Source: Betaproteobacteria bacterium SG8_39 (GTDB taxonomy: Bacteria; Pseudomonadota; Gammaproteobacteria; Burkholderiales; SG8-39). From it: a DNA stretch of 34,356 nucleotides. The notes below the pieces were generated by a model. That model saw nothing but the letters and a program-made list of their open reading frames with translations, was not told where the DNA came from and did not search any database. The stretch covers positions 1-34,356 of the forward strand of contig LJTQ01000015.1 in the NCBI GenBank assembly GCA_001303445.1. Direction: 5' to 3'. Positions 10,644 through 21,807 of the stretch are shown one piece after another. The stretch's first letter is position 1. Each line of letters starts with the position of its first letter. The position numbers were made by a program, and so were the translations under genes.

Positions 10644-11477
10644 TCAGGCGGCCGAGGCCCCCAGCCGCTTGCGGTAGCGCGACAGGTCCTGCAGCGTGCG
10701 GATCGGCGCGTCGAGCAGCTTCGACAGGTTGAGCAGGATCATGTCGATGACCTTCTTCTCCCAGTCGCGGTCGAAGCGGATCTGCTCGCTCAGCCAGCGC
10801 TCGAGCCACTCGGGATCGGGCAGCCGGCTCTGCACCGTGTCGTGCGGGAACAGCGTCTCGTTGACGTGCAGGTTGGTGGGATGCAGCGGCTTGCCGCTGC
10901 GCATGCTCGCGGCCATCAGCACGCCCATCTTGGCGAACGCGGCCCGCGCCTGGTCGCCGAGGCGCTCGATGGCGCGCTTCATGTACTGCAGATAGGCACC
11001 GCCGTGGCGCGCCTCGTCGCGCGACAGCAGCGTGTAGATCGCGCGGATCACCGGCTCGCTGTGCCACTCGGCGGCGCAGCGGTACCAGTGGTTGAGCCGG
11101 ATCTCGCCGCAGAAGTGCAGCATCAGGGTCTCGAGCGGCGGCGCCGGATCGAAGGCGAAGCGCACGGCGTGCAGCTCGGCTTCCGTGGGCGCGAGCTCGG
11201 GCCGAAAGCGCCGCAGGTACTCGATCAGCGCGAGCGCGTGCTTCTGCTCCTCGAAGAACCACACCGACATGAAGGCCGAGAAGTCGCTGTCGTCGAGGTT
11301 GTCGCGCAGGAACATCTCGGTTGCCGGCAGCGCGGCCCACTCGGTGATGGCGTTCATCTTGACAGTGAGCGCCTGCTCGTCGGACAGGCGCGCGCCGTCG
11401 AACGCGGCCCAGGGCACGTCGTCCTCCATGTTCCAGCGCACGCGTTCGAGCGACTTGAAGATCTCGGGATAAAGCAT
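10644..11477 (-). CDS. Ferritin-like / acyl-ACP-desaturase-like di-iron protein
   Basis: 277 aa from ATG 11477; FFEEQKHALALIEYLRRF (EExxH) and SRDEARHGGAYLQYM (DExxH) di-iron motifs in helices. Confidence 0.75.
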   Translation of the reverse strand: MLYPEIFKSLERVRWNMEDDVPWAAFDGARLSDEQALTVKMNAITEWAALPATEMFLRDNLDDSDFSAFMSVWFFEEQKHALALIEYLRRFRPELAPTEAELHAVRFAFDPAPPLETLMLHFCGEIRLNHWYRCAAEWHSEPVIRAIYTLLSRDEARHGGAYLQYMKRAIERLGDQARAAFAKMGVLMAASMRSGKPLHPTNLHVNETLFPHDTVQSRLPDPEWLERWLSEQIRFDRDWEKKVIDMILLNLSKLLDAPIRTLQDLSRYRKRLGASAA

Positions 11478-11559: not shown

Positions 11560-12477
11560 TCAGCCGCGCGCAGCCACGTGCTGCGCCCGCCAGCGGTCGA
11601 GCGCCGCGCTGACCTGGTCGAGTCCGCCAAGCGCCTGGATGCCCTTCGCCGCGCGCTTGAGCCGCGCCGCGCCCGCCCCGCCGCACCACAGCGCGACGGC
11701 GCCCGGCAGCTGCGCGCGCAGCAAGCGAACGCTTTCTCCGACCTGCGCGGCCGAGGCATTGGCGCTGATCGAGAGCGCGACCACGTCCGCCTTCTGCGCG
11801 ATCGCCGCCGCGACAATATCGCGCAGCGGGGTCTGCGTGCCGAGCGAGACGCACTGCGCGCCCTCCAGCGTCGCCATCGCCTCCGCCATCAGCAGGCCGA
11901 GGCCGTGGCGCTCGTCGGGCAGCGTCGTCATGAGGATGCGCGGCGGGCCGGCGCTTGCGCCGAGCTGCGCGATCGCCTGGCGCAGCACCGCCTGCAGCAC
12001 CTCGGTCAGCAGGTGCTCCTCGTAGACCTGCAGCTCGCCGCGCGTCCAGGCGTCGCCGACCTGCACCGTGAGCGGCGCGACCGTGTCGAGCACGAAGCGC
12101 TTGACGCCGTCGCGCATCAGCACCTGGGTGAGCTCGCGGCGCAGCTCCGCGGCCTGGTGGGTCTTCAACAGGAACAGCGCAAGGTCGTGCAGCGCGCTGC
12201 GCGGCGGCGCCTCGCCGGCGCCTTCCTCGGCGAGCGCCTGCAGCGCCGCGGCGTCGAGCTTGAGCAGGCGCCCGGGGCGCAGGCCGCGATCCATCAGGCG
12301 CTTGACGACGCGCAGCTGCGCGACCTGCGCCTCGGGGTAAAGACGATCGCCGCTGGCATCGCGATCGGGCTGCGGAAAGCCGTAGCGCCGCTCCCAGACG
12401 CGCAGGGTGTCCTTGGGCAGGCCGGTTTCGCGTTCGACGGCGGCGATCGGCATCAGGTGGTCGGGTCCAGATTGCAT
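11560..12477 (-). CDS. MerR-family regulator with cobalamin-binding domain (LitR/CarH-like)
   Basis: 305 aa; MerR HTH (PIAAVERETGLPKDTLRVWERRYGFPQPDRDASGDRLY); W-x9-EH (WTRGELQVYEEH) and E-x-H-x-x-G (ERHGLG) B12-binding motifs. Confidence 0.88.
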   Translation of the reverse strand: MQSGPDHLMPIAAVERETGLPKDTLRVWERRYGFPQPDRDASGDRLYPEAQVAQLRVVKRLMDRGLRPGRLLKLDAAALQALAEEGAGEAPPRSALHDLALFLLKTHQAAELRRELTQVLMRDGVKRFVLDTVAPLTVQVGDAWTRGELQVYEEHLLTEVLQAVLRQAIAQLGASAGPPRILMTTLPDERHGLGLLMAEAMATLEGAQCVSLGTQTPLRDIVAAAIAQKADVVALSISANASAAQVGESVRLLRAQLPGAVALWCGGAGAARLKRAAKGIQALGGLDQVSAALDRWRAQHVAARG

Positions 12478-12478
12478 A

Positions 12479-12491
12479 TTGTCCTAGACAA
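12479..12491. promoter_or_regulatory. Candidate operator 1, inverted repeat TTGTC-CTA-GACAA
   Basis: Direct reading of the divergent intergenic region; 5-bp perfect arms, 4 bp upstream of a TTGACA -35. Confidence 0.6.
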
Positions 12492-12495
12492 AATG

Positions 12496-12524
12496 TTGAC
12501 AAACTCTGAAAACGCCATCATTAT
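12496..12524 (+). promoter_or_regulatory. Candidate sigma70 promoter for the FAD oxidoreductase operon
   Basis: TTGACA (12496-12501), 17-bp spacer, CATTAT (12519-12524). Confidence 0.6.
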
Positions 12525-12548
12525 CCGCCATGATATTGTTTTTGTCCA
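12520..12548 (-). promoter_or_regulatory. Candidate sigma70 promoter for the MerR/B12 regulator gene
   Basis: Minus strand TGGACA (12548-12543), 17-bp spacer, GATAAT (12525-12520). Confidence 0.6.
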
Positions 12549-12554
12549 GGACAA
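12542..12554. promoter_or_regulatory. Candidate operator 2, inverted repeat TTGTCC-A-GGACAA
   Basis: Perfect 6-bp arms around a single central base; overlaps the minus-strand -35. Confidence 0.6.
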
Positions 12555-12557
12555 CTA

Positions 12558-12848
12558 ATGATCCGTCCGATCTGCGTTTCGCTGCTTGCTGCCCTCGCCG
12601 GGCCCGTGCTCGCGGGCCATCCCTCCCACCCGCAACCGGGCCCGTCGGGGGCGGCAGCCGCGTTCGCATTCCTCATCGAGGCGCATCACCTGGCCAGCGG
12701 CGGCAGCGGGCTGCTGCCGCTGCGCCTTGCGCCAGCGCCGCGGCGCTCGCGCCTGTGCCTGCCGGGCCGGGAGGCGGATACCGCCGGCGTTGGCCCCGTC
12801 ATCCCAGACCGCTCGACCGACGCGCGCCTCGCGCGCCTCGCGGTCTGA
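12558..12848 (+). CDS. Putative small secreted protein, first ORF of the operon
   Basis: 96 aa; AGGA 6 nt before ATG; signal-peptide-like N-terminus MIRPICVSLLAALAGPVLAGHPSHP; high G/C at third codon positions. Confidence 0.45.
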   Translation: MIRPICVSLLAALAGPVLAGHPSHPQPGPSGAAAAFAFLIEAHHLASGGSGLLPLRLAPAPRRSRLCLPGREADTAGVGPVIPDRSTDARLARLAV

Positions 12849-12868
12849 GCCGCAAGGCGGGTCAGCGC

Positions 12869-14200
12869 ATGCGCATCGCCGTCGTCGGATCGGGGATCTC
12901 GGGTCTCGCCACCGCCTGGCTGCTCGCCGAGCGCCACGCGGTCACGCTGTTCGAAGCGGCCGCGCGCCCCGGCGGCCACACCCACACGGTCGAGGTGACG
13001 CTCGACGGCGTGTCGCACGGCGTCGACACCGGCTTTCTGGTGTTCAACCACAAGACCTATCCCAACCTCGTCGCCCTGTTCCGGCAGCTCGGCGTGCCGA
13101 CCGCGGCAAGCGAGATGAGTTTCAGCCTCTCGCTCGAGGCACCGCACATCGAATGGTCCGGCGACAACCTCGACACGCTGTTCGCGCAGCGCCGCAACCT
13201 GCTGCGACCGGCGTTCCTGCGCATGCTGCGCGACGTGCTGCGCTTCAACCGCGAAGCGGCGCAGGACGCGCAAGCGCCGCAGGCCGCCGACGCGACGCAA
13301 TCGCTCGGTGCCGTTCTCGCCCGCCGCGGCTACAGCGCCGAGTTCCGCGACTGGTACCTGCTGCCGATGGCCGCGGCGATCTGGTCCTGCCCGACGCGCA
13401 GCATGCTCGAGTATCCCTTCGCCAGCTTCGCGCGCTTTTTCCGCAACCACGGCCTGCTCGAGCTGACCGACCGGCCGCAATGGCTGACCGTCGCCGGCGG
13501 CGCACGCCAGTACGTCGACCGCCTGCTCGCACGGCTGCGCGACGTGCGCCTCGCCACGCGCGTGCTGCGCGCGCGGCGCGACGCCAGCGGCGTGACGCTC
13601 GATTTCGTGCACAACGCGCCGGGCCTGCCGCGCGGCAGCGAGCGCTTCGACGCGCTGGTGCTCGGCTGCCACAGCGACCAGGCACTGCAGATCCTCGGCG
13701 TGCAGGCGAGCGGCGCGGAGCGCGCGCTGCTCGAGGCGATTCCCTACCAGCCGAACCGCGCCGTGCTGCACACCGACGCGGCGTTGCTGCCGCGCAACCG
13801 GCGCCTGTGGTCGGCCTGGAACTACAGCGCCGGTGCCGACGGGCCCGACGGCCGCGCGGTCGGCGTGCACTACCTGATCAACAAGCTGCAACCGCTGCCG
13901 TTCAGCGCGCCCGTGGTGGTCTCGCTCAACCCGCATCGCGAGCCGGCGCCGGAGGCGGTCATTGCCGAGTTCGACTATGCGCACCCGGTGTTCGACGCGC
14001 GCTCGGCCGATGCGCAGGCTGCACTGGCGGGCCTGCAGGGCGTCAACCGCACCTGGTTCTGCGGCGCCTGGACGCGCTACGGGTTTCACGAAGACGGGCT
14101 GCGCTCGGCGCTCACGGTGGCGAACGCCCTGGGCGTCCGCGCGCCCTGGCAGGCGGCAGCGCAGACGCCGCCCGCGGACCGCCAGTTGGAGGCGGCGTGA
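12869..14200 (+). CDS. FAD-dependent oxidoreductase (amine-oxidase/desaturase-like)
   Basis: 443 aa; MRIAVVGSGISGLATAWLLAERHAVTLFEAAARPGGHTHT Rossmann motif; C-terminal FCGAWTRYGFHEDGLRSALTVANALG. Confidence 0.92.
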   Translation: MRIAVVGSGISGLATAWLLAERHAVTLFEAAARPGGHTHTVEVTLDGVSHGVDTGFLVFNHKTYPNLVALFRQLGVPTAASEMSFSLSLEAPHIEWSGDNLDTLFAQRRNLLRPAFLRMLRDVLRFNREAAQDAQAPQAADATQSLGAVLARRGYSAEFRDWYLLPMAAAIWSCPTRSMLEYPFASFARFFRNHGLLELTDRPQWLTVAGGARQYVDRLLARLRDVRLATRVLRARRDASGVTLDFVHNAPGLPRGSERFDALVLGCHSDQALQILGVQASGAERALLEAIPYQPNRAVLHTDAALLPRNRRLWSAWNYSAGADGPDGRAVGVHYLINKLQPLPFSAPVVVSLNPHREPAPEAVIAEFDYAHPVFDARSADAQAALAGLQGVNRTWFCGAWTRYGFHEDGLRSALTVANALGVRAPWQAAAQTPPADRQLEAA

Positions 14201-14964
14201 ACGCACCGCGCGCGGAGCTGCTGCTCGGCACGGTCATGCACCGGCGCCTGCGTCCGGTGGAGAACCGTTTCGCCTACGGCGTGTACTTCCTGCGCATCCC
14301 GCTCACGCGCCTGGACTCGATGCGTGGTCCGCTGCTGTCGATCAACCGCTGGAACCTGCTGAGCTTCGATTTTCGCGATTACGGCGCGCGCGACGGCTCG
14401 CATCCGCTCGCCTGGATCCGTGATCTGCTCGCCCGCGAAGGGCTTGCGGCCGCCGATGGCGAGATCTGGCTGCATACGTTTCCGCGCGTACTCGGCTACG
14501 TCTTCAACCCGGTGAGCTTCTGGTTCTGCGAGGACCGCGCGGGGCGCACGCGCGCGATCCTCGCCGAGGTCAGCAACACCTTCGGCGAGCGGCACGGCTA
14601 CCTGCTGGCGCAGCCCGAGGGTCAGCCGATCACCCCGGGCCAGACGCTCACCACGCGCAAGCAGTTCCACGTCTCGCCGTTCTGCACGCTGTCCGGTGGC
14701 TACCGCTTCCGCTTCCTCACAAAGAACGGCCAGCGCATCGCACGCATCGACTATGCGGACGAGGCAGGCCCGCTGCTGCTCACCAGCCTTTCCGGCAAGG
14801 CAACGCCGCTATGCAGCAGCGCGATCCTGCGCGCACTGCTGCGCTACCCGCTGCTGACGTTCGGCGTCATCGCCCGCATCCACTGGCAGGCGCTCAAGCT
14901 TTGGATCAAGCGCGTGCCGTTCCATTCCAAGCCCGCCCTGCCGCTGGAAGAGGTGACGCGATGA
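14197..14964 (+). CDS. DUF1365 family protein
   Basis: 255 aa from GTG (GTGA overlap); GTVMHRRLRPVENRFAYGVYFLRIPL, FPRVLGYVFNPVSFWFCED, EVSNTFGERHGY. Confidence 0.92.
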   Translation: MNAPRAELLLGTVMHRRLRPVENRFAYGVYFLRIPLTRLDSMRGPLLSINRWNLLSFDFRDYGARDGSHPLAWIRDLLAREGLAAADGEIWLHTFPRVLGYVFNPVSFWFCEDRAGRTRAILAEVSNTFGERHGYLLAQPEGQPITPGQTLTTRKQFHVSPFCTLSGGYRFRFLTKNGQRIARIDYADEAGPLLLTSLSGKATPLCSSAILRALLRYPLLTFGVIARIHWQALKLWIKRVPFHSKPALPLEEVTR

Positions 14965-16157
14965 ACAGCACCGCCCTGTCACGCGCGGCGCTGCCGATGG
15001 CCGCGCGCGCCGTGCTGAAGGCGCTGGAGCGCCTCGCGCATGGCCGCCTGCAACTCACGCTGCCGGACGGCGCGACGCTCGATTTCGGGCCGGGCGGCGC
15101 CGCCGCGCACATCGACGTGCGCGACTGGCGCGCGTTCCACCGCATCCTGATTTCGGGCGACATCGGCTTCGCCGAAGGCTGGATCGACGGCGACTGGACC
15201 AGCAGCGACCCGGCCGGACTGCTGAGCCTGCTCGCGCGCAACCGCGCCGCGCTCGACGGCGCGATCTACGGCAGCTGGGTCGGCCGCGTGACGCACGGTC
15301 TGCTGCACGCGCTGCGCGCCAATACCCGGCGGGGCGCGCGGCGCAACATCGCCGCGCACTACGACCTGGGCAACGACTTCTACCGCCTCTGGCTCGACCC
15401 CGGCATGACCTATTCGAGCGCGCTGTTCGAGGGCGATGCAACACGCGGCCTGGAGCAGGCGCAGACGGCGAAGCTCGAGCGCATCCTGCAGCGCCTCGCG
15501 GCACCGGCGGGCAGCCACGTGCTCGAGATCGGCTGCGGCTGGGGCAGCTTCGCCGAGCGCGCCGCGCGGCGCGGCCTGCGCGTGAGCGGGATCACGCTGT
15601 CGCGCGAGCAACTGGCCTACGCGCGCAGCCGCGTCGCGCAGGCCGGCCTCGGCCACCATGTGCGTCTCGAGCTGCGCGATTACCGCGACCTGCATGCGCG
15701 CTACGACGCCGTGGTCTCGATCGAAATGCTGGAAGCCGTGGGCGAACGCTGGTGGCCGACGTACTTCGCCAAGCTCGCGGCCTGCCTGCCGCGCGGCGGG
15801 CGGGCGCTGCTGCAGTCGATCGTCATCGACGACGCGCTGTTCGCGCGCTACCGCCAGGGCAGCGATTTCATCCGCGAGCGCATCTTCCCCGGCGGCATGC
15901 TGCCCAGCCTGCCGCGGATGCAGGCCGAGGCGGCGCGCGCCGGACTCGAGGTCGTCGAGACGCAGGCCTTCGGCGCCGACTACGCGCGCACGCTGGCGCT
16001 GTGGCGCGAGCGCTTCGTCGCGGCGCAGCCGCGGCTGCGTGCGCTCGGCTTCGACGCGCGCTTCGAGCGGATGTGGATGTTCTACCTGGCCTACTGCGAA
16101 GCGGGCTTTCTCGCCGGCTCGACCGACGTCGTCCAAGTTCTGCTGCGGAGGTCGTGA
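14961..16157 (+). CDS. Cyclopropane-fatty-acid-synthase-family SAM-dependent methyltransferase
   Basis: 398 aa; NIAAHYDLGNDFYRLWLDPGMTYSSALFEG, VLEIGCGWGSFAERAARRG, SIEMLEAVG, ERIFPGGMLPS, FGADYARTLALWRERF; ATGA overlap. Confidence 0.93.
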   Translation: MNSTALSRAALPMAARAVLKALERLAHGRLQLTLPDGATLDFGPGGAAAHIDVRDWRAFHRILISGDIGFAEGWIDGDWTSSDPAGLLSLLARNRAALDGAIYGSWVGRVTHGLLHALRANTRRGARRNIAAHYDLGNDFYRLWLDPGMTYSSALFEGDATRGLEQAQTAKLERILQRLAAPAGSHVLEIGCGWGSFAERAARRGLRVSGITLSREQLAYARSRVAQAGLGHHVRLELRDYRDLHARYDAVVSIEMLEAVGERWWPTYFAKLAACLPRGGRALLQSIVIDDALFARYRQGSDFIRERIFPGGMLPSLPRMQAEAARAGLEVVETQAFGADYARTLALWRERFVAAQPRLRALGFDARFERMWMFYLAYCEAGFLAGSTDVVQVLLRRS

Positions 16158-16699
16158 TGCGCACGGTCCTAAGCGTGGTGCTTTTCGCGCTGGCGGCGGT
16201 GACTGCGCCGGCGGGCGCAGTCACCGAGCTTGCGCGGGCGCCGAAAACGCCGGCTCCGCCCGCAGGCTATGCGCTGCAGCCCGTCGGCCAGGGCACGCTC
16301 ACCTGGTTCGGCCTGCACATCTACGACGCCGCGCTGTGGGCGCCGAACGAGGCAGTCGATTTCGAACGGCCGTTCGCCCTGGTGCTGCGCTACGCACGCT
16401 CGCTCGACGGCGCATCGGTCGCCGCGCGCTCGATCGAGGAGATCGAACGTCTCGGCGCGGGCAGTGCCGCGCAGCGCGTGGCCTGGGGCGCGCTTCTGCG
16501 CTCGACCGTGCCCGATGTCGAGGCGGGTGACCAGATCGCCGCCGTGCACCGGCCCGGCTGGGGCGCGCGCTTCTACCTCAACGGGCGGCTGCTGGCCGAG
16601 ATCGCGGACCCCGCGTTCTCGCGCGCATTTTTCTCGATCTGGCTCGACCCGCGCACCCGCGTGCCCGAGCTGCGCGCCGCGCTGATCGGCGCGCACTAG
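16157..16699 (+). CDS. Chalcone-isomerase-like periplasmic protein
   Basis: 180 aa with signal peptide; GYALQPVGQGTLTWFGLHIYDAALWAP ... FSIWLDPRTRVPELRAALIG; TGATG overlap. Confidence 0.8.
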   Translation: MRTVLSVVLFALAAVTAPAGAVTELARAPKTPAPPAGYALQPVGQGTLTWFGLHIYDAALWAPNEAVDFERPFALVLRYARSLDGASVAARSIEEIERLGAGSAAQRVAWGALLRSTVPDVEAGDQIAAVHRPGWGARFYLNGRLLAEIADPAFSRAFFSIWLDPRTRVPELRAALIGAH

Positions 16700-16702
16700 C
16701 GC

Positions 16703-17983
16703 GTGCCGCCAAGCCCGCGCATTCCGGGCCGCGCGCTCGCGGCCTACGGCGCGCTCGGCCTGCCGCTGGCGAGCGCCGCGCTGCCGGTCTACGTGCACCT
16801 GCCGAACCTGTACGGCGGCCTGCTCGGCATGGAGCTCGCGCTGCTCGGCGCGCTGCTGCTCGCCGCGCGGCTGCTCGATGCGCTGGTCGACCCGCTGATC
16901 GGCGTGCTCAACGACCGCCTGCAGCGCCCGCGCCTGCTCGCCGGCATGGGCGCGCTGCTCCTCGCTCTCGGCATGCTGGGGGTGCTCAATCCGCCGCGCG
17001 ACGGCAGCGGCCTCGCCGTCTGGCTGGTGCTCGCGCTGGTTCCCGTGTACCTCGGCTTCAGCCTGGCGAGCGTCAGCTACCACGCCTGGGGCGCGCTGCT
17101 CGGCGACGACCCGCACGAGCGCACCCGGGTCACCGCGAGCCGCGAAGCCTTCGGCCTGGCGGGCGTCGTCGCCGCGAGCGTGCTGCCCACGCTGCTCGCG
17201 CCGACGCTCGACGTCGGGCTGGCGCGCTTCGCCTGGCTGCTCGCCGCAGCGACCGCGCTCGCCGCCGCGGTGACGCTGCTCGCGGCACCGCGTCCGGCCG
17301 GGCCGGCGCGGACCGCCCACGACGCCGGGCGGCCCAAGCGGTTCGGCGGCATCGCCGCGCCGTTCGGCAACCCGGCGTTCCGCCGGCTGTTCACGGTCTT
17401 CATGCTGAACGGCATTGCGACCGCACTGCCCGCCACGCTGGTGCTGTTCTTCGTCGCCGATGCGCTGCAGCTGCCGCGCCACGCCGGCAGCTTCCTCGCG
17501 GCTTACTTTCTCGCCGGCGCGCTCAGCCTGCCGCTGTGGGTGACCGTCGCGCGTCGCAGCGGCAAGGCGCGCGCCTGGCTCGGCGGGATGCTCGCCGCGG
17601 TGCTCGCCTTCGTCGGCGCGTTCGTGCTCGGCCCCGGCGACGTGCTCGCCTTCGGCGCGATCTGCCTGCTCTCGGGACTTGCGCTCGGCGCCGACCTGGC
17701 GCTGCCGCCGGCCTTGCTCGCCGACGTGATTCGCGAGGGCCGCGAGGAACAGCGCGCCGGCGCCTACTTCGGGCTGTGGAACTTCGCCACCAAGCTCAAC
17801 CTGGCGCTCGCCGCCGGCCTCGCGCTGCCGCTGCTCGCCTGGCTCGGCTACCAGCCCGGCGCGACGCCGACCGTCGCACCGCTCTACTACGTGTACTGCC
17901 TGGTGCCCTGCGCGCTGAAGCTCGCCGCGGCGGCGCTGTTGTGGCGCGAGTTCGGCCGCTCACCGGAGATCTGCCATGCCTAG
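16703..17983 (+). CDS. MFS transporter, GPH (glycoside-pentoside-hexuronide:cation symporter)-like
   Basis: 426 aa from GTG; multiple TM helices; LLDALVDPLIGVLNDRLQ, YHAWGALLGDDPHERTRVTASREAFGL. Confidence 0.85.
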   Translation: MPPSPRIPGRALAAYGALGLPLASAALPVYVHLPNLYGGLLGMELALLGALLLAARLLDALVDPLIGVLNDRLQRPRLLAGMGALLLALGMLGVLNPPRDGSGLAVWLVLALVPVYLGFSLASVSYHAWGALLGDDPHERTRVTASREAFGLAGVVAASVLPTLLAPTLDVGLARFAWLLAAATALAAAVTLLAAPRPAGPARTAHDAGRPKRFGGIAAPFGNPAFRRLFTVFMLNGIATALPATLVLFFVADALQLPRHAGSFLAAYFLAGALSLPLWVTVARRSGKARAWLGGMLAAVLAFVGAFVLGPGDVLAFGAICLLSGLALGADLALPPALLADVIREGREEQRAGAYFGLWNFATKLNLALAAGLALPLLAWLGYQPGATPTVAPLYYVYCLVPCALKLAAAALLWREFGRSPEICHA

Positions 17984-18506
17984 ATTCCTCACCGCTCTGT
18001 GCGCCGCGCTGCTGCTCGTCGCGGGCTGCTCGAGCGTCGATCCCGCCGTCTACCGCAGCGAGAAGCCGGCGCTCGACCTGTACCGCTATTTCGACGGCAC
18101 GGTCGACGCCTGGGGCCATTTCGCCGATCGCTCGGGCACGGTCGTCAAGCGCTTCAAGGTCGAAATCCGCGGCCGCGTCGAGAACGGCGCGCTGGTGCTC
18201 GACGAGGCCTTCCGCTACTCGGACGGCACGGCCTCGCGCCGCGTGTGGACCATCACGCGCAGCGCCGACGGAGGCTACCGCGGCACGGCCGCCGACGTGG
18301 TCGGCGAGGCGCAGGGCGTGGTGAGCGGCAACGCGCTGCACTGGGCCTACGTGCTCGCACTCGAGGTCGACGGCACGACCTGGAACCTCGAGGTCGACGA
18401 CTGGATGTACCTGCAGGACGCGCAGGTCATGCTCAACAAATCGGTCATGCGCAAGTTCGGCTTCCGCGTCGGCGAGGTGATCCTCGCCTTTCGCCGCCGC
18501 GGCTGA
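17976..18506 (+). CDS. DUF3833-family putative lipoprotein
   Basis: 176 aa; LLLVAGCSSVDPAVYRSEKPALDLYRYFDGTVDAWGHFADRSGTVVKRFKVEI; overlaps the transporter by 8 bp. Confidence 0.88.
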   Translation: MPRFLTALCAALLLVAGCSSVDPAVYRSEKPALDLYRYFDGTVDAWGHFADRSGTVVKRFKVEIRGRVENGALVLDEAFRYSDGTASRRVWTITRSADGGYRGTAADVVGEAQGVVSGNALHWAYVLALEVDGTTWNLEVDDWMYLQDAQVMLNKSVMRKFGFRVGEVILAFRRRG

Positions 18507-18529
18507 CGGGCGCAGGAAGGCCGCCGCCG

Positions 18530-19303
18530 ATGGCACTCAATCCACCGATCCGCGACTGGCGCGAACGCCGCGTGTGGATTGTCGGCGGCTCGACCGGCAT
18601 CGGCGCGGCGACCGCCGAGCGCCTGCTCGCCGCCGGCGCGCGCGTCGCGGTGAGCGCGCGCAGCGCGGACACGCTCCAAGCGCGCTTCGCGCGCCACGCC
18701 GAGTGTCTGCGGCTGCCGGCCTACGTGCTCGACGTCGCCACGCTCGAGGCCGGCCTGGCGGCGATCGTCACGCGCTGGGGCGGGCTCGATCTCGCCATCG
18801 CCTGCGCCGGCACCTACCGCGAGATGCGCGCCATCGCGCCCGACCGCGAGGCCGCGCGGACGATCGGCCGCACCAACTTCGAAGGCGCGTTCAACGTCTA
18901 CGCCACCTGCCTGCCGCAGTGGCAGTCGCAGGGCGGCGGCGCGCTGGCACTCGTGTCGAGCGCGGCGGGCTACACCGGCCTGCCGAACAGCCTCGCCTAC
19001 GGCGCCTCGAAGGCCGCGCTCATCAACCTGGCCGAGTCGCTGTGGCTCGACCTCGCGCGGCACGGCATCGCGGTGACGCTGATCAACCCGGGCTTCGTCG
19101 ACACGCCGCTCACCGCGCAGAACCGCTTTCACATGCCGGCGATGATCTCGGCCGAGGCCGCCGCGCACGAGATCCTGCGCGGCTTCGCGCGCGGCGCGTT
19201 CGAGATCCATTTTCCCAAGCGCTTCACACGCAGCCTGAAACTCATTGCGATGCTGCCGCATGCGCTGCGCTTCTGGTGCATCCGTCGCTTTACAGGCGCA
19301 TGA
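18530..19303 (+). CDS. Short-chain dehydrogenase/reductase
   Basis: 257 aa; VWIVGGSTGIGAATAERLL, SSAAGYTGLPNSLAYGASKAALINLAE (S-Y-K), INPGFVDTPLT. Confidence 0.92.
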   Translation: MALNPPIRDWRERRVWIVGGSTGIGAATAERLLAAGARVAVSARSADTLQARFARHAECLRLPAYVLDVATLEAGLAAIVTRWGGLDLAIACAGTYREMRAIAPDREAARTIGRTNFEGAFNVYATCLPQWQSQGGGALALVSSAAGYTGLPNSLAYGASKAALINLAESLWLDLARHGIAVTLINPGFVDTPLTAQNRFHMPAMISAEAAAHEILRGFARGAFEIHFPKRFTRSLKLIAMLPHALRFWCIRRFTGA

Positions 19304-20877
19304 TCTCGATCGCAATGCCAAGCAGCCCGTCGAGCCTCGCGCCGCGCACCCCGCGGGCACTGGACCTGCGCTATCGCCTGTTCATGGCGGGCGCCGGCCT
19401 GGTCGACTTGCTGTTCACCGGCGCCTACCTCGCGGTGGCGGGCATCGGCGCCGCGCCGCTGGCGATGCTCGCGCTCGACCTGGCGGTGTTCATGGCACTG
19501 AACGCGACCGCCGCCGGCCTGCTGTTCGCCCCGGTGCGCGCCGCGCTCGAGGGCCGCGCGCCGGTGCGGCGCGCCTACCGGCGCCTCAACCGCCTGCCGC
19601 TGTATTCCGGGCTGTGGGTCTTCGTCATCGGCTTCGCCTACGCCGCCTGGGTGTTCGCCAGCGGCGCCTACGTCTACGACGAAACGCTGCTCGGTGTGCT
19701 CTCGCCCTCGTACAAGGCGCGCGCGCTGGCCTGGTATGCGCTGGTCTACGCCACCTACTTCGCGCTCTACGCCGCGTTTGCTGCGAACGACTGCGCGCGG
19801 CTGGCGCGCCGCGCGCTCGCCGCGCTCGGCCCGGACAGCGCACCGCGTCCACGCGAGCTCGACGGGCATCTGGTGCCTCGGCTCTGGCTTGCACTCGCCA
19901 TGCTCGCGATCCTGCCGCCGCTGATCATCGTCATGGACCTCACCGCCTTCGCGCCGCTGCGCCGCGTGCAGGGCCTGTCGACCGAGGACGTGATCATCCT
20001 CGACCTGCTCGCGACGCTCGCCGCCGGCGGGCTCGCCGCGGTGTTCGCCGCGCGCCAGATCAGCGAGCCGCTCGACCAGCTCGAGCAGGCGGTGACGCGC
20101 ATCGCGCGCGGCAGGTACGGCGAGCCGGCGCCGGTGCTCGGCGACGACGAGCTGGGACGCCTCACGCTGCACGTCAACCACATGAGCGAGGGCCTGCGCG
20201 AGCGCGAGGTCATCCGGCGCGAGTTCGGCCGCTTCGTCAGCCCGGAGATCGCTTCGCGTATCCTCGATGACGCCCTGAACGAGGCGCCGGAAGCCGCCGC
20301 GCACGAGCTGCGCGACACCACGATCCTGTTCAGCGACCTCAAGGGCTTCACCACGCTGGCCGAAAAGCTGCCGCCGGAGAGCATGATCGAGCTGATGAAC
20401 CGCTACTTCCGCATCATCGACGAGACGATCCGCGCGCATGGCGGCATGATCCATTCCTTCATCGGCGACGCCGTGCACGCCTCGTTCAATTTCGCCGACG
20501 ACTGCCCGGGCCATGCGGCGCGCGCGCTCGCCGCGGCGCTCGCCATCCAGGCGCGGCTCGACGCGGCGCGCTTCGCCGGCGGCGAGACCATGCACACGCG
20601 CATCGGCGTGCACACCGGGCCGGTGGCGGCGGCCGCGGTCGGCAGCGAGGAGCGCATGAACTACGCCATGTTCGGCGACGCGGTGAACGTCGCCATGCGC
20701 ATCGAGCAGCTCAATAAGGACAAGGGCACGCGCGTGCTGGCGAGCAGCGAGACCGTCGCCGCCTGCGGGCCCGAGGACCGGCTGCGCCTCGGGCTGCGCG
20801 CGCTCGGCGAGGTCCGCCTGCGCGGGCGCGTCTCGCCGATCCGCATCTACGAAGTCGGCGCCGGAGCCCGCGCATGA
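19300..20877 (+). CDS. Membrane-bound class III nucleotide cyclase with HAMP-like linker
   Basis: 525 aa; several N-terminal TMs, HAMP-like ISEPLDQLEQAVTRIARGRYGE, catalytic TTILFSDLKGFTTLAEKL ... FIGDAVHASFN ... MFGDAVNVAMRIEQ; ATGA overlap with SDR. Confidence 0.92.
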   Translation: MISIAMPSSPSSLAPRTPRALDLRYRLFMAGAGLVDLLFTGAYLAVAGIGAAPLAMLALDLAVFMALNATAAGLLFAPVRAALEGRAPVRRAYRRLNRLPLYSGLWVFVIGFAYAAWVFASGAYVYDETLLGVLSPSYKARALAWYALVYATYFALYAAFAANDCARLARRALAALGPDSAPRPRELDGHLVPRLWLALAMLAILPPLIIVMDLTAFAPLRRVQGLSTEDVIILDLLATLAAGGLAAVFAARQISEPLDQLEQAVTRIARGRYGEPAPVLGDDELGRLTLHVNHMSEGLREREVIRREFGRFVSPEIASRILDDALNEAPEAAAHELRDTTILFSDLKGFTTLAEKLPPESMIELMNRYFRIIDETIRAHGGMIHSFIGDAVHASFNFADDCPGHAARALAAALAIQARLDAARFAGGETMHTRIGVHTGPVAAAAVGSEERMNYAMFGDAVNVAMRIEQLNKDKGTRVLASSETVAACGPEDRLRLGLRALGEVRLRGRVSPIRIYEVGAGARA

Positions 20878-21311
20878 GCAAGCGGCCGGTGCGCGACGCG
20901 CTCGACCGGCTCGTCGGCTGGTACGAGACGCTCACGCCGGAGACGCTCGAGCGCATCACCGAGATCTACGCGCAGGACGCGCACTTCAAGGACCCGTTCA
21001 ACGACGTCACCGGGCGCGCGGCGATCCGCCGCGTGTTCGCGCACATGTTCGCGACCACCGGGGCGCCGCAGTTTCGCATCCTGGCGCGCGTCGCCGGCGA
21101 GGGCGAGGCCTTCGTCACCTGGTGCTTCGCCTTTCGCGCGGCGCGGCGCGCCTTCGAGATCAGAGGCGCGACGCATCTCGTGTTCGATGCGCGCGGCAAA
21201 GTGGTCGAGCACCGCGACTACTGGGACGCGGCCGAGGAACTCTACGCCAAGCTGCCGGTGCTCGGTGGGCTCCTGCGCCTGCTGGGCCGGCGGTTTCGCA
21301 CGCCCGATTAG
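20874..21311 (+). CDS. NTF2/SnoaL-like protein, last gene of the operon
   Basis: 145 aa; YAQDAHFKDPFNDVTGRAAIRRVFAHMF ... HLVFDARGKVVEHRDYWDAAEELYAKLP; ATGA overlap with cyclase. Confidence 0.88.
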   Translation: MSKRPVRDALDRLVGWYETLTPETLERITEIYAQDAHFKDPFNDVTGRAAIRRVFAHMFATTGAPQFRILARVAGEGEAFVTWCFAFRAARRAFEIRGATHLVFDARGKVVEHRDYWDAAEELYAKLPVLGGLLRLLGRRFRTPD

Positions 21312-21324
21312 CGCGCCCGCCCGC

Positions 21325-21735
21325 TCAGGCCGCGTATTCGTCGAACCCGGGCAGCGCCGAGCCGTCGCAGGACCAGCCGGCGCGCGAGCCCTCGAAGATG
21401 CGCGCCTGCGGGCGGATCTCCGGCTCGTCGTCGAGCGAGCCCGCGGGGATGAGCACCATGCCCTGCTGCTCGATGAAGCGTGGCAGGCGCCCGCCGCAGG
21501 TCGTGCAGAAGGCGTTGGTGAAGCGCTCGGCCTGCGGCAGCTTGAAGCGGCGCACCAGCGCCTCGCCGCTGTCCCAGCGCAGGCTGCCCTTGACGAACAG
21601 GTTGCTCGAGTGCCCGCTGCCCGTGGCCTTGCGGCAGCGCGAGCAATGGCAGTGATAGAAGCGCTGCGACACGCCCTCCACCGTATAGCGAACGGCGCCG
21701 CACAGGCAGCTGCCGCCTAGCGTTCGTGCAGTCAT
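21325..21735 (-). CDS. GFA-family (glutathione-dependent formaldehyde-activating-like) zinc protein
   Basis: 136 aa; GGSCLCGAVRYTVEG, FYHCHCSRCRKATGSGHSSNLFV, FCTTCGGRLP; GGAAGG 6 nt before ATG 21735. Confidence 0.9.
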   Translation of the reverse strand: MTARTLGGSCLCGAVRYTVEGVSQRFYHCHCSRCRKATGSGHSSNLFVKGSLRWDSGEALVRRFKLPQAERFTNAFCTTCGGRLPRFIEQQGMVLIPAGSLDDEPEIRPQARIFEGSRAGWSCDGSALPGFDEYAA

Positions 21736-21807
21736 GCGCACCCTTCCGGTTCGGTCAATGAAAGCACCGATTGTGCCCGACTCCGGCGGGCGCCCCGCCG
21801 TGCGGAA

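Follow-up and report, generated by a model that had tools for sequence, protein, structure and literature searches.

A genus-specific membrane nucleotide cyclase inserted into a putative light-inducible lipid operon of a Burkholderiales bacterium

The window analyzed here is a 34,356-nucleotide stretch of contig LJTQ01000015.1 from Betaproteobacteria bacterium SG8_39, a member of the order Burkholderiales. At positions 11560-21311 it carries ten genes, comprising a divergent regulator of the LitR/CarH type and a tightly packed run that extends from a flavin adenine dinucleotide (FAD) enzyme to a SnoaL-like protein (Table 1). Our main finding is that the membrane-bound class III nucleotide cyclase within this run is a real, genus-specific insertion that is under selection. 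An original prediction made from the sequence had placed a membrane cyclase inside the operon, and this placement is borne out: the gene lies between those for a short-chain dehydrogenase (SDR) and SnoaL, where selection has kept it in two species. The operon and its B12/light switch are of a known kind, and the genus-specific cyclase insertion is the new element.

The distribution of the cyclase was followed across 150 SDR loci, of which 18, recognized manually as repeats of a genome already represented, were removed to leave 132 genomes of the order; at least 1.5 kb downstream of the SDR gene was examined at each locus, unless the contig ended. Of the 130 genomes that belong to other genera, 117 have SnoaL immediately after SDR, and no class III cyclase was found downstream of SDR in the stretch examined in any of these 130. 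The cyclase occupies the exact position between SDR and SnoaL in the two remaining genomes, both in the window's genus, with ATGA overlaps on both sides. Conserved linkage of the cyclase to the regulator and operon, on which the original prediction partly hinged, therefore holds inside the genus but not outside it. A phylum-wide sample of 29 further loci likewise yielded no cyclase, in a set where DUF3833 stands beside SDR in just 11, gene context varies, many loci are not this operon and some genomes repeat the order set. On these counts we rejected the idea that such operons generally include the cyclase.

Scanning the genome collection with an alignment of the cyclase returned the sister-species genome as the only match. 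The sister protein, 86% identical to that of the window, is also found on JAJDNJ010000177.1, from the metagenome-assembled genome Betaproteobacteria bacterium ALJrbin.28. We rejected a chimeric assembly because the identical arrangement occurs in the sister species, an independent genome of the same genus, and a decaying insert because the cyclase gene contains no stops and its ratio of nonsynonymous to synonymous substitution rates (dN/dS) between the two species is 0.21 (neighbors, 0.17-0.49). The SnoaL gene has a dN/dS of 0.49 between both cyclase-bearing species and evolves faster than its neighbors.

Leaving the cyclase aside, the run is a known and widespread operon of the light-inducible furan-fatty-acid type. 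A close SDR homologue occurs in 154 of the 399 genomes of the order, and nearly all of 40 loci spread across its families carry the whole gene set, usually with LitR nearby; the exceptions are one locus at which an SDR homologue stands without these genes and a few loci in small genomes that are short of some of them. In the window, the positions of the ten genes and the overlaps that had been predicted were confirmed, Pfam matches back all ten assignments, and the arrangement is repeated in the sister genome. Consecutive genes overlap by GTGA (FAD enzyme and DUF1365, 14197-14200), ATGA (DUF1365 and methyltransferase, 14961-14964), TGATG (methyltransferase and Chalcone_3, 16155-16159) and 8 bp (GPH transporter and DUF3833, 17976-17983), and ATGA overlaps flank the cyclase on its SDR side (19300-19303) and its SnoaL side (20874-20877). 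The only two gaps within the run measure 3 bp, before the transporter gene, and 23 bp, before SDR. The run, within which terminator-like sites did not exceed chance, stops at 21311 facing a convergent GFA gene (21325-21741, minus strand).

Table 1. Genes and candidate regulatory sites of the LitR-operon locus (window coordinates).
Feature	Position	Strand	Support or remark
LitR/CarH-type MerR regulator, class I, B12-binding domain	11560..12477	-	Pfam MerR_1, B12-binding_2, B12-binding
Candidate operator palindrome Site 1, TTGTCCTAGACAA	12479..12491	.	directly upstream of operon -35 and litR start codon
Operon promoter-like site TTGACA-N17-CATTAT	12496..12524	+	same hexamers and 17-base spacer in sister species
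litR promoter-like site TGGACA-N17-GATAAT	12520..12548	-	overlaps operon promoter and Site 2
Candidate operator palindrome Site 2, TTGTCCAGGACAA	12542..12554	.	63 bp from Site 1
Open reading frame, 96 codons, between operator and FAD gene	12558..12848	+	no Pfam match
FAD oxidoreductase, UfaD-like	12869..14200	+	Pfam Amino_oxidase, NAD_binding_8
DUF1365 protein, UfaO-like	14197..14964	+	Pfam DUF1365 1e-79
S-adenosylmethionine methyltransferase, CFA-synthase fold, UfaM-like	14961..16157	+	Pfam CMAS 2e-86
Chalcone isomerase-like protein	16157..16699	+	Pfam Chalcone_3
GPH/MFS_2 transporter	16703..17983	+	Pfam MFS_2
DUF3833 lipoprotein-like protein	17976..18506	+	Pfam DUF3833 9e-65
Short-chain dehydrogenase (SDR)	18530..19303	+	Pfam adh_short 3e-38
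Membrane-HAMP-class III nucleotide cyclase	19300..20877	+	Pfam HAMP 1e-12, Guanylate_cyc 1.5e-25
SnoaL/NTF2-like protein, final gene of run	20874..21311	+	Pfam SnoaL_2

The lipid genes of the run were compared with those of Rhodobacter sphaeroides and Rhodopseudomonas palustris, in which methylated furan fatty acids are the products of UfaD (a FAD enzyme), UfaO (DUF1365) and UfaM (a CFA-like methyltransferase) (PMC7380195). All three are present in the window in the order D-O-M, the same as that of RPA2571-2569 within the R. palustris set RPA2571-2568, so the resemblance to the Ufa cluster noted in the original prediction is upheld; a cyclase is not described in either Rhodobacter or Rhodopseudomonas set, unlike in the window (PMC7380195). 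The methyltransferase carries Ser in place of the Cfa-type Cys and Gln in place of the Cfa-type His, two positions that form the bicarbonate site in Cfa. Among the operon homologues compared with Cfa-type enzymes, a comparison that did not include R. sphaeroides UfaM itself, Gln replaces the His in all 36 that cover the site, and Ser, Ala or Gly replaces the Cys in all 37. The difference at both active-site positions in every member compared would be in keeping with an enzyme of the UfaM type and not a Cfa.

Along its full length the regulator aligns with Thermus thermophilus CarH (3whp/5c8d), and it contains a MerR helix-turn-helix together with both B12-binding subdomains. The published light signature consists of the motifs GxxW, EH, GxxH and GxxxP (PMC11796333). 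GxxW, EH and GxxxP are kept, and the third motif reads DERH for GERH, with one Gly lost and the cobalt-ligand His retained; the earlier assignment to the LitR/CarH type thus agrees with a B12-photosensor signature that is mostly present. The regulator scores 134.7 bits against the NCBIfam CarH equivalog, below the cut-off of 400. A PduO-type cobalamin adenosyltransferase is encoded in the genome.

The intergenic region upstream of the operon contains two TTGTCYNRGACAA palindromes, which are exactly the two found in the whole genome, where none would be expected. In the sister genome there are likewise only two, again 63 bp apart, and across 25 divergent LitR-FAD gaps we counted 15 palindrome motifs in 21.5 kb, compared with one in 692 kb elsewhere. 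The sole two promoter-like sites in 10.4 kb are divergent, overlap one another and are framed by both palindromes; Site 2 lies downstream of the -35 element of the operon promoter and partly overlaps the litR -35. We predict from this pattern that the LitR operator is the paired TTGTCYNRGACAA sequence. Light control gains support because the LitR signature is mostly kept and the paired palindromes frame the divergent promoters. Away from the litR-operon region, a same-family genome has a second strict palindrome of the LitR type (G010:C11:50535-50547, locus L106), which could possibly mark another regulon member.

A similar promoter plan is known from Pseudomonas. The nine-gene ufaM operon of P. 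mendocina is under LitR, with ufaM light-induced 25-33 fold, and its sigma-70-type promoter likewise has operators at -35 and past the transcription start (PMC9758184). The P. mendocina/P. putida operon (PME6650-6610) resembles that of the window in combining SDR, FAD oxidoreductase and UfaM with uncharacterized genes (PMC9758184). However, no cyclase is listed for it, its operator is TGTACA-N12-TGTACA rather than TTGTCYNRGACAA, and the Pseudomonas LitRs belong to class II, with a LOV partner and no full B12-binding domain, whereas the LitR of the window belongs to class I. Alternatively, singlet oxygen or some other stress might be the main trigger of the operon, acting through a regulator other than LitR, which would then be only a modulator. 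The R. sphaeroides set (RSP1087-1091 and ufaM) is controlled through ChrR/sigma-E (PMC7380195), and the blue-light genes of Vibrio cholerae use both ChrR and MerR (PMC5241685). Nevertheless, the conserved promoter at the present locus is of the sigma-70 type and accompanied by LitR-linked palindromes, and we regard control mainly by another regulator as quite improbable.

The cyclase is composed of about 5-6 hydrophobic helices, as judged by hydropathy, followed by a HAMP domain and a class III catalytic domain. An AlphaFold model built from two sequences had a mean predicted local distance difference test (pLDDT) score of 36 and was unusable. The photoactivated adenylyl cyclases bPAC and OaPAC are among the closest solved catalytic domains, yet the cyclase of the window has no flavin BLUF domain and differs in its substrate-selecting residues; light would instead act on it through transcription. 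A likeness of architecture, which does not imply homology of the membrane domains, is seen with Rv3645 (MacE) of Mycobacterium tuberculosis, in which six predicted transmembrane helices precede HAMP and a class III cyclase and which is linked to fatty-acid physiology (PMC9995111). Rv3645 is not light-linked, and it has been argued not to sense long-chain fatty acids (PMC9995111).

Relative to bPAC, both metal-binding Asp residues (D346, D390) and both transition-state residues (N463, R467) are intact and invariant, and the protein is probably catalytically active. Its relatives have Asn or Gln where bPAC has the substrate-selecting Lys, and mostly Thr at the other selecting position. The membrane half is rare: near-complete relatives occur in only four other genomes of the 399 in the order, at 29-39% identity (E 1e-8), and two more relatives in the same family were found using the whole protein. 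The neighborhoods of the distant relatives are not conserved, and no lipid or light link was seen in them. Cyclic-nucleotide signaling appears to be at home in this genome, since it contains 17 matches to cyclic nucleoside monophosphate (cNMP)-binding domains and 21 to class III cyclases.

Taken together, these features lead us to infer the following course for repression, the light response, co-transcription, lipid products, and the activity and stimulus of the cyclase. An ancestor of the genus would have inserted the membrane-HAMP-class III cyclase between SDR and SnoaL of a Burkholderiales-type operon. In the dark, adenosylcobalamin-bound LitR would sit on the two palindromes 63 bp apart and block the overlapping divergent promoters; in the light, breakage of the cobalt-carbon bond would release LitR and allow the operon to be transcribed as a single message. 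The UfaD/UfaO/UfaM-like enzymes would then methylate and oxidize membrane acyl chains, and the cyclase would be co-produced with them through ATGA translational coupling. Its membrane domain may report on the membrane through HAMP, yielding a cyclic-nucleotide product. We consider it reasonably probable that a LitR-controlled, light-inducible furan/methylated-fatty-acid operon with an ancestrally inserted cyclase works in this manner. The conversion of light into a second-messenger signal, as originally suggested, is plausible on the sequence evidence. The fuller proposal of a light- and lipid-gated circuit, in which one B12 switch remodels acyl chains and also raises a possibly non-canonical cyclic nucleotide that reports the remodeling, is put forward tentatively and is rather unlikely to hold as a whole. 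No such circuit was found in the literature searched, where the combination of LitR and adenylate cyclase returned only the two-hybrid use of the term.

Several observations weigh against this scheme. The two genomes with the linked cyclase are drafts and come from a single genus. The position of His132 in T. thermophilus CarH is Thr in the regulator and non-His in all other 28 LitRs compared; this His serves as the second cobalt ligand after light, in a bis-His arrangement, and the H132A mutant is unable to monomerize (PMC11796333). With Thr at this position, release of LitR must work differently or less well. CtMerR is also without a His132 equivalent and is still light-responsive (PMC11796333). 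In the cyclase, Ser386 replaces the bPAC Lys and Ala456 the bPAC Thr, which makes its substrate and activity uncertain. Finally, distant relatives of the cyclase adjoin cytochrome-c maturation, metal efflux and ABC genes.

The two substitutions, present in both species, raise the alternative that the cyclase is altered or dead toward adenosine or guanosine triphosphate (ATP or GTP), acting as a sensor or scaffold at the membrane, or making another cyclic nucleotide. Its residues match neither the canonical Lys with Asp/Thr (ATP) nor the Glu/Cys type (GTP), so neither cyclic adenosine nor cyclic guanosine monophosphate can be assumed as the product. The Asn or Gln that relatives carry in place of the Lys points the same way, even though most retain Thr. 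Set against this are the four intact, invariant catalytic residues, and some characterized members of class III are active despite non-canonical residues. We judge an altered or dead enzyme to be fairly unlikely.

The gene neighborhoods of the distant relatives bear instead on whether the cyclase is a passenger, co-transcribed with the operon but serving general cyclic-nucleotide signaling with its own stimulus, and tied to lipids or light by expression level only. Linkage confined to one genus and the abundance of class III cyclase matches in the genome would suit such a role. However, the constraint on the cyclase resembles that of its neighbors, the gene sits inside the operon and not at its end, and the exact ATGA coupling at both of its ends is kept in two species whose proteins are ~14% apart. 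A passenger role is a genuine possibility, if an unlikely one, and we continue to favor the LitR-controlled operon with an ancestrally inserted cyclase.

Other features were recorded around the regulator. The 96-codon open reading frame was rejected as a conserved first gene, as it has no homologue in the loci compared and is absent from the sister species, in which just 96 bp separate the litR and FAD matches. It has a signal-peptide-like start and follows directly after Site 2, at the place where the FAD gene of the sister species begins. Many relatives (L065, L067, L076, L078, L082 and others) have a folE2-like GTP cyclohydrolase gene between litR and the FAD gene, with the GCHY-1 domain confirmed by Pfam for L067; the window's genus has none at this place, and the gene was either lost or never there. 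Beside litR, positions 10644-11470 (minus strand) encode a diiron/ferritin-like protein with weak FA_desaturase_2 and AurF matches. At many of the 40 loci from relatives a homologue lies close to litR or the operon, and this protein may be an unrecognized lipid-oxidizing partner.

The known light responses of non-photosynthetic bacteria are repair, pigment and lipid programs. A cyclase under the same switch would, if true, extend these responses to second-messenger signaling, and the locus would offer an example of a conserved stress operon rewired by the insertion of one signaling gene. The predicted paired TTGTCYNRGACAA operator provides a direct and cheap handle on light control in many betaproteobacteria.

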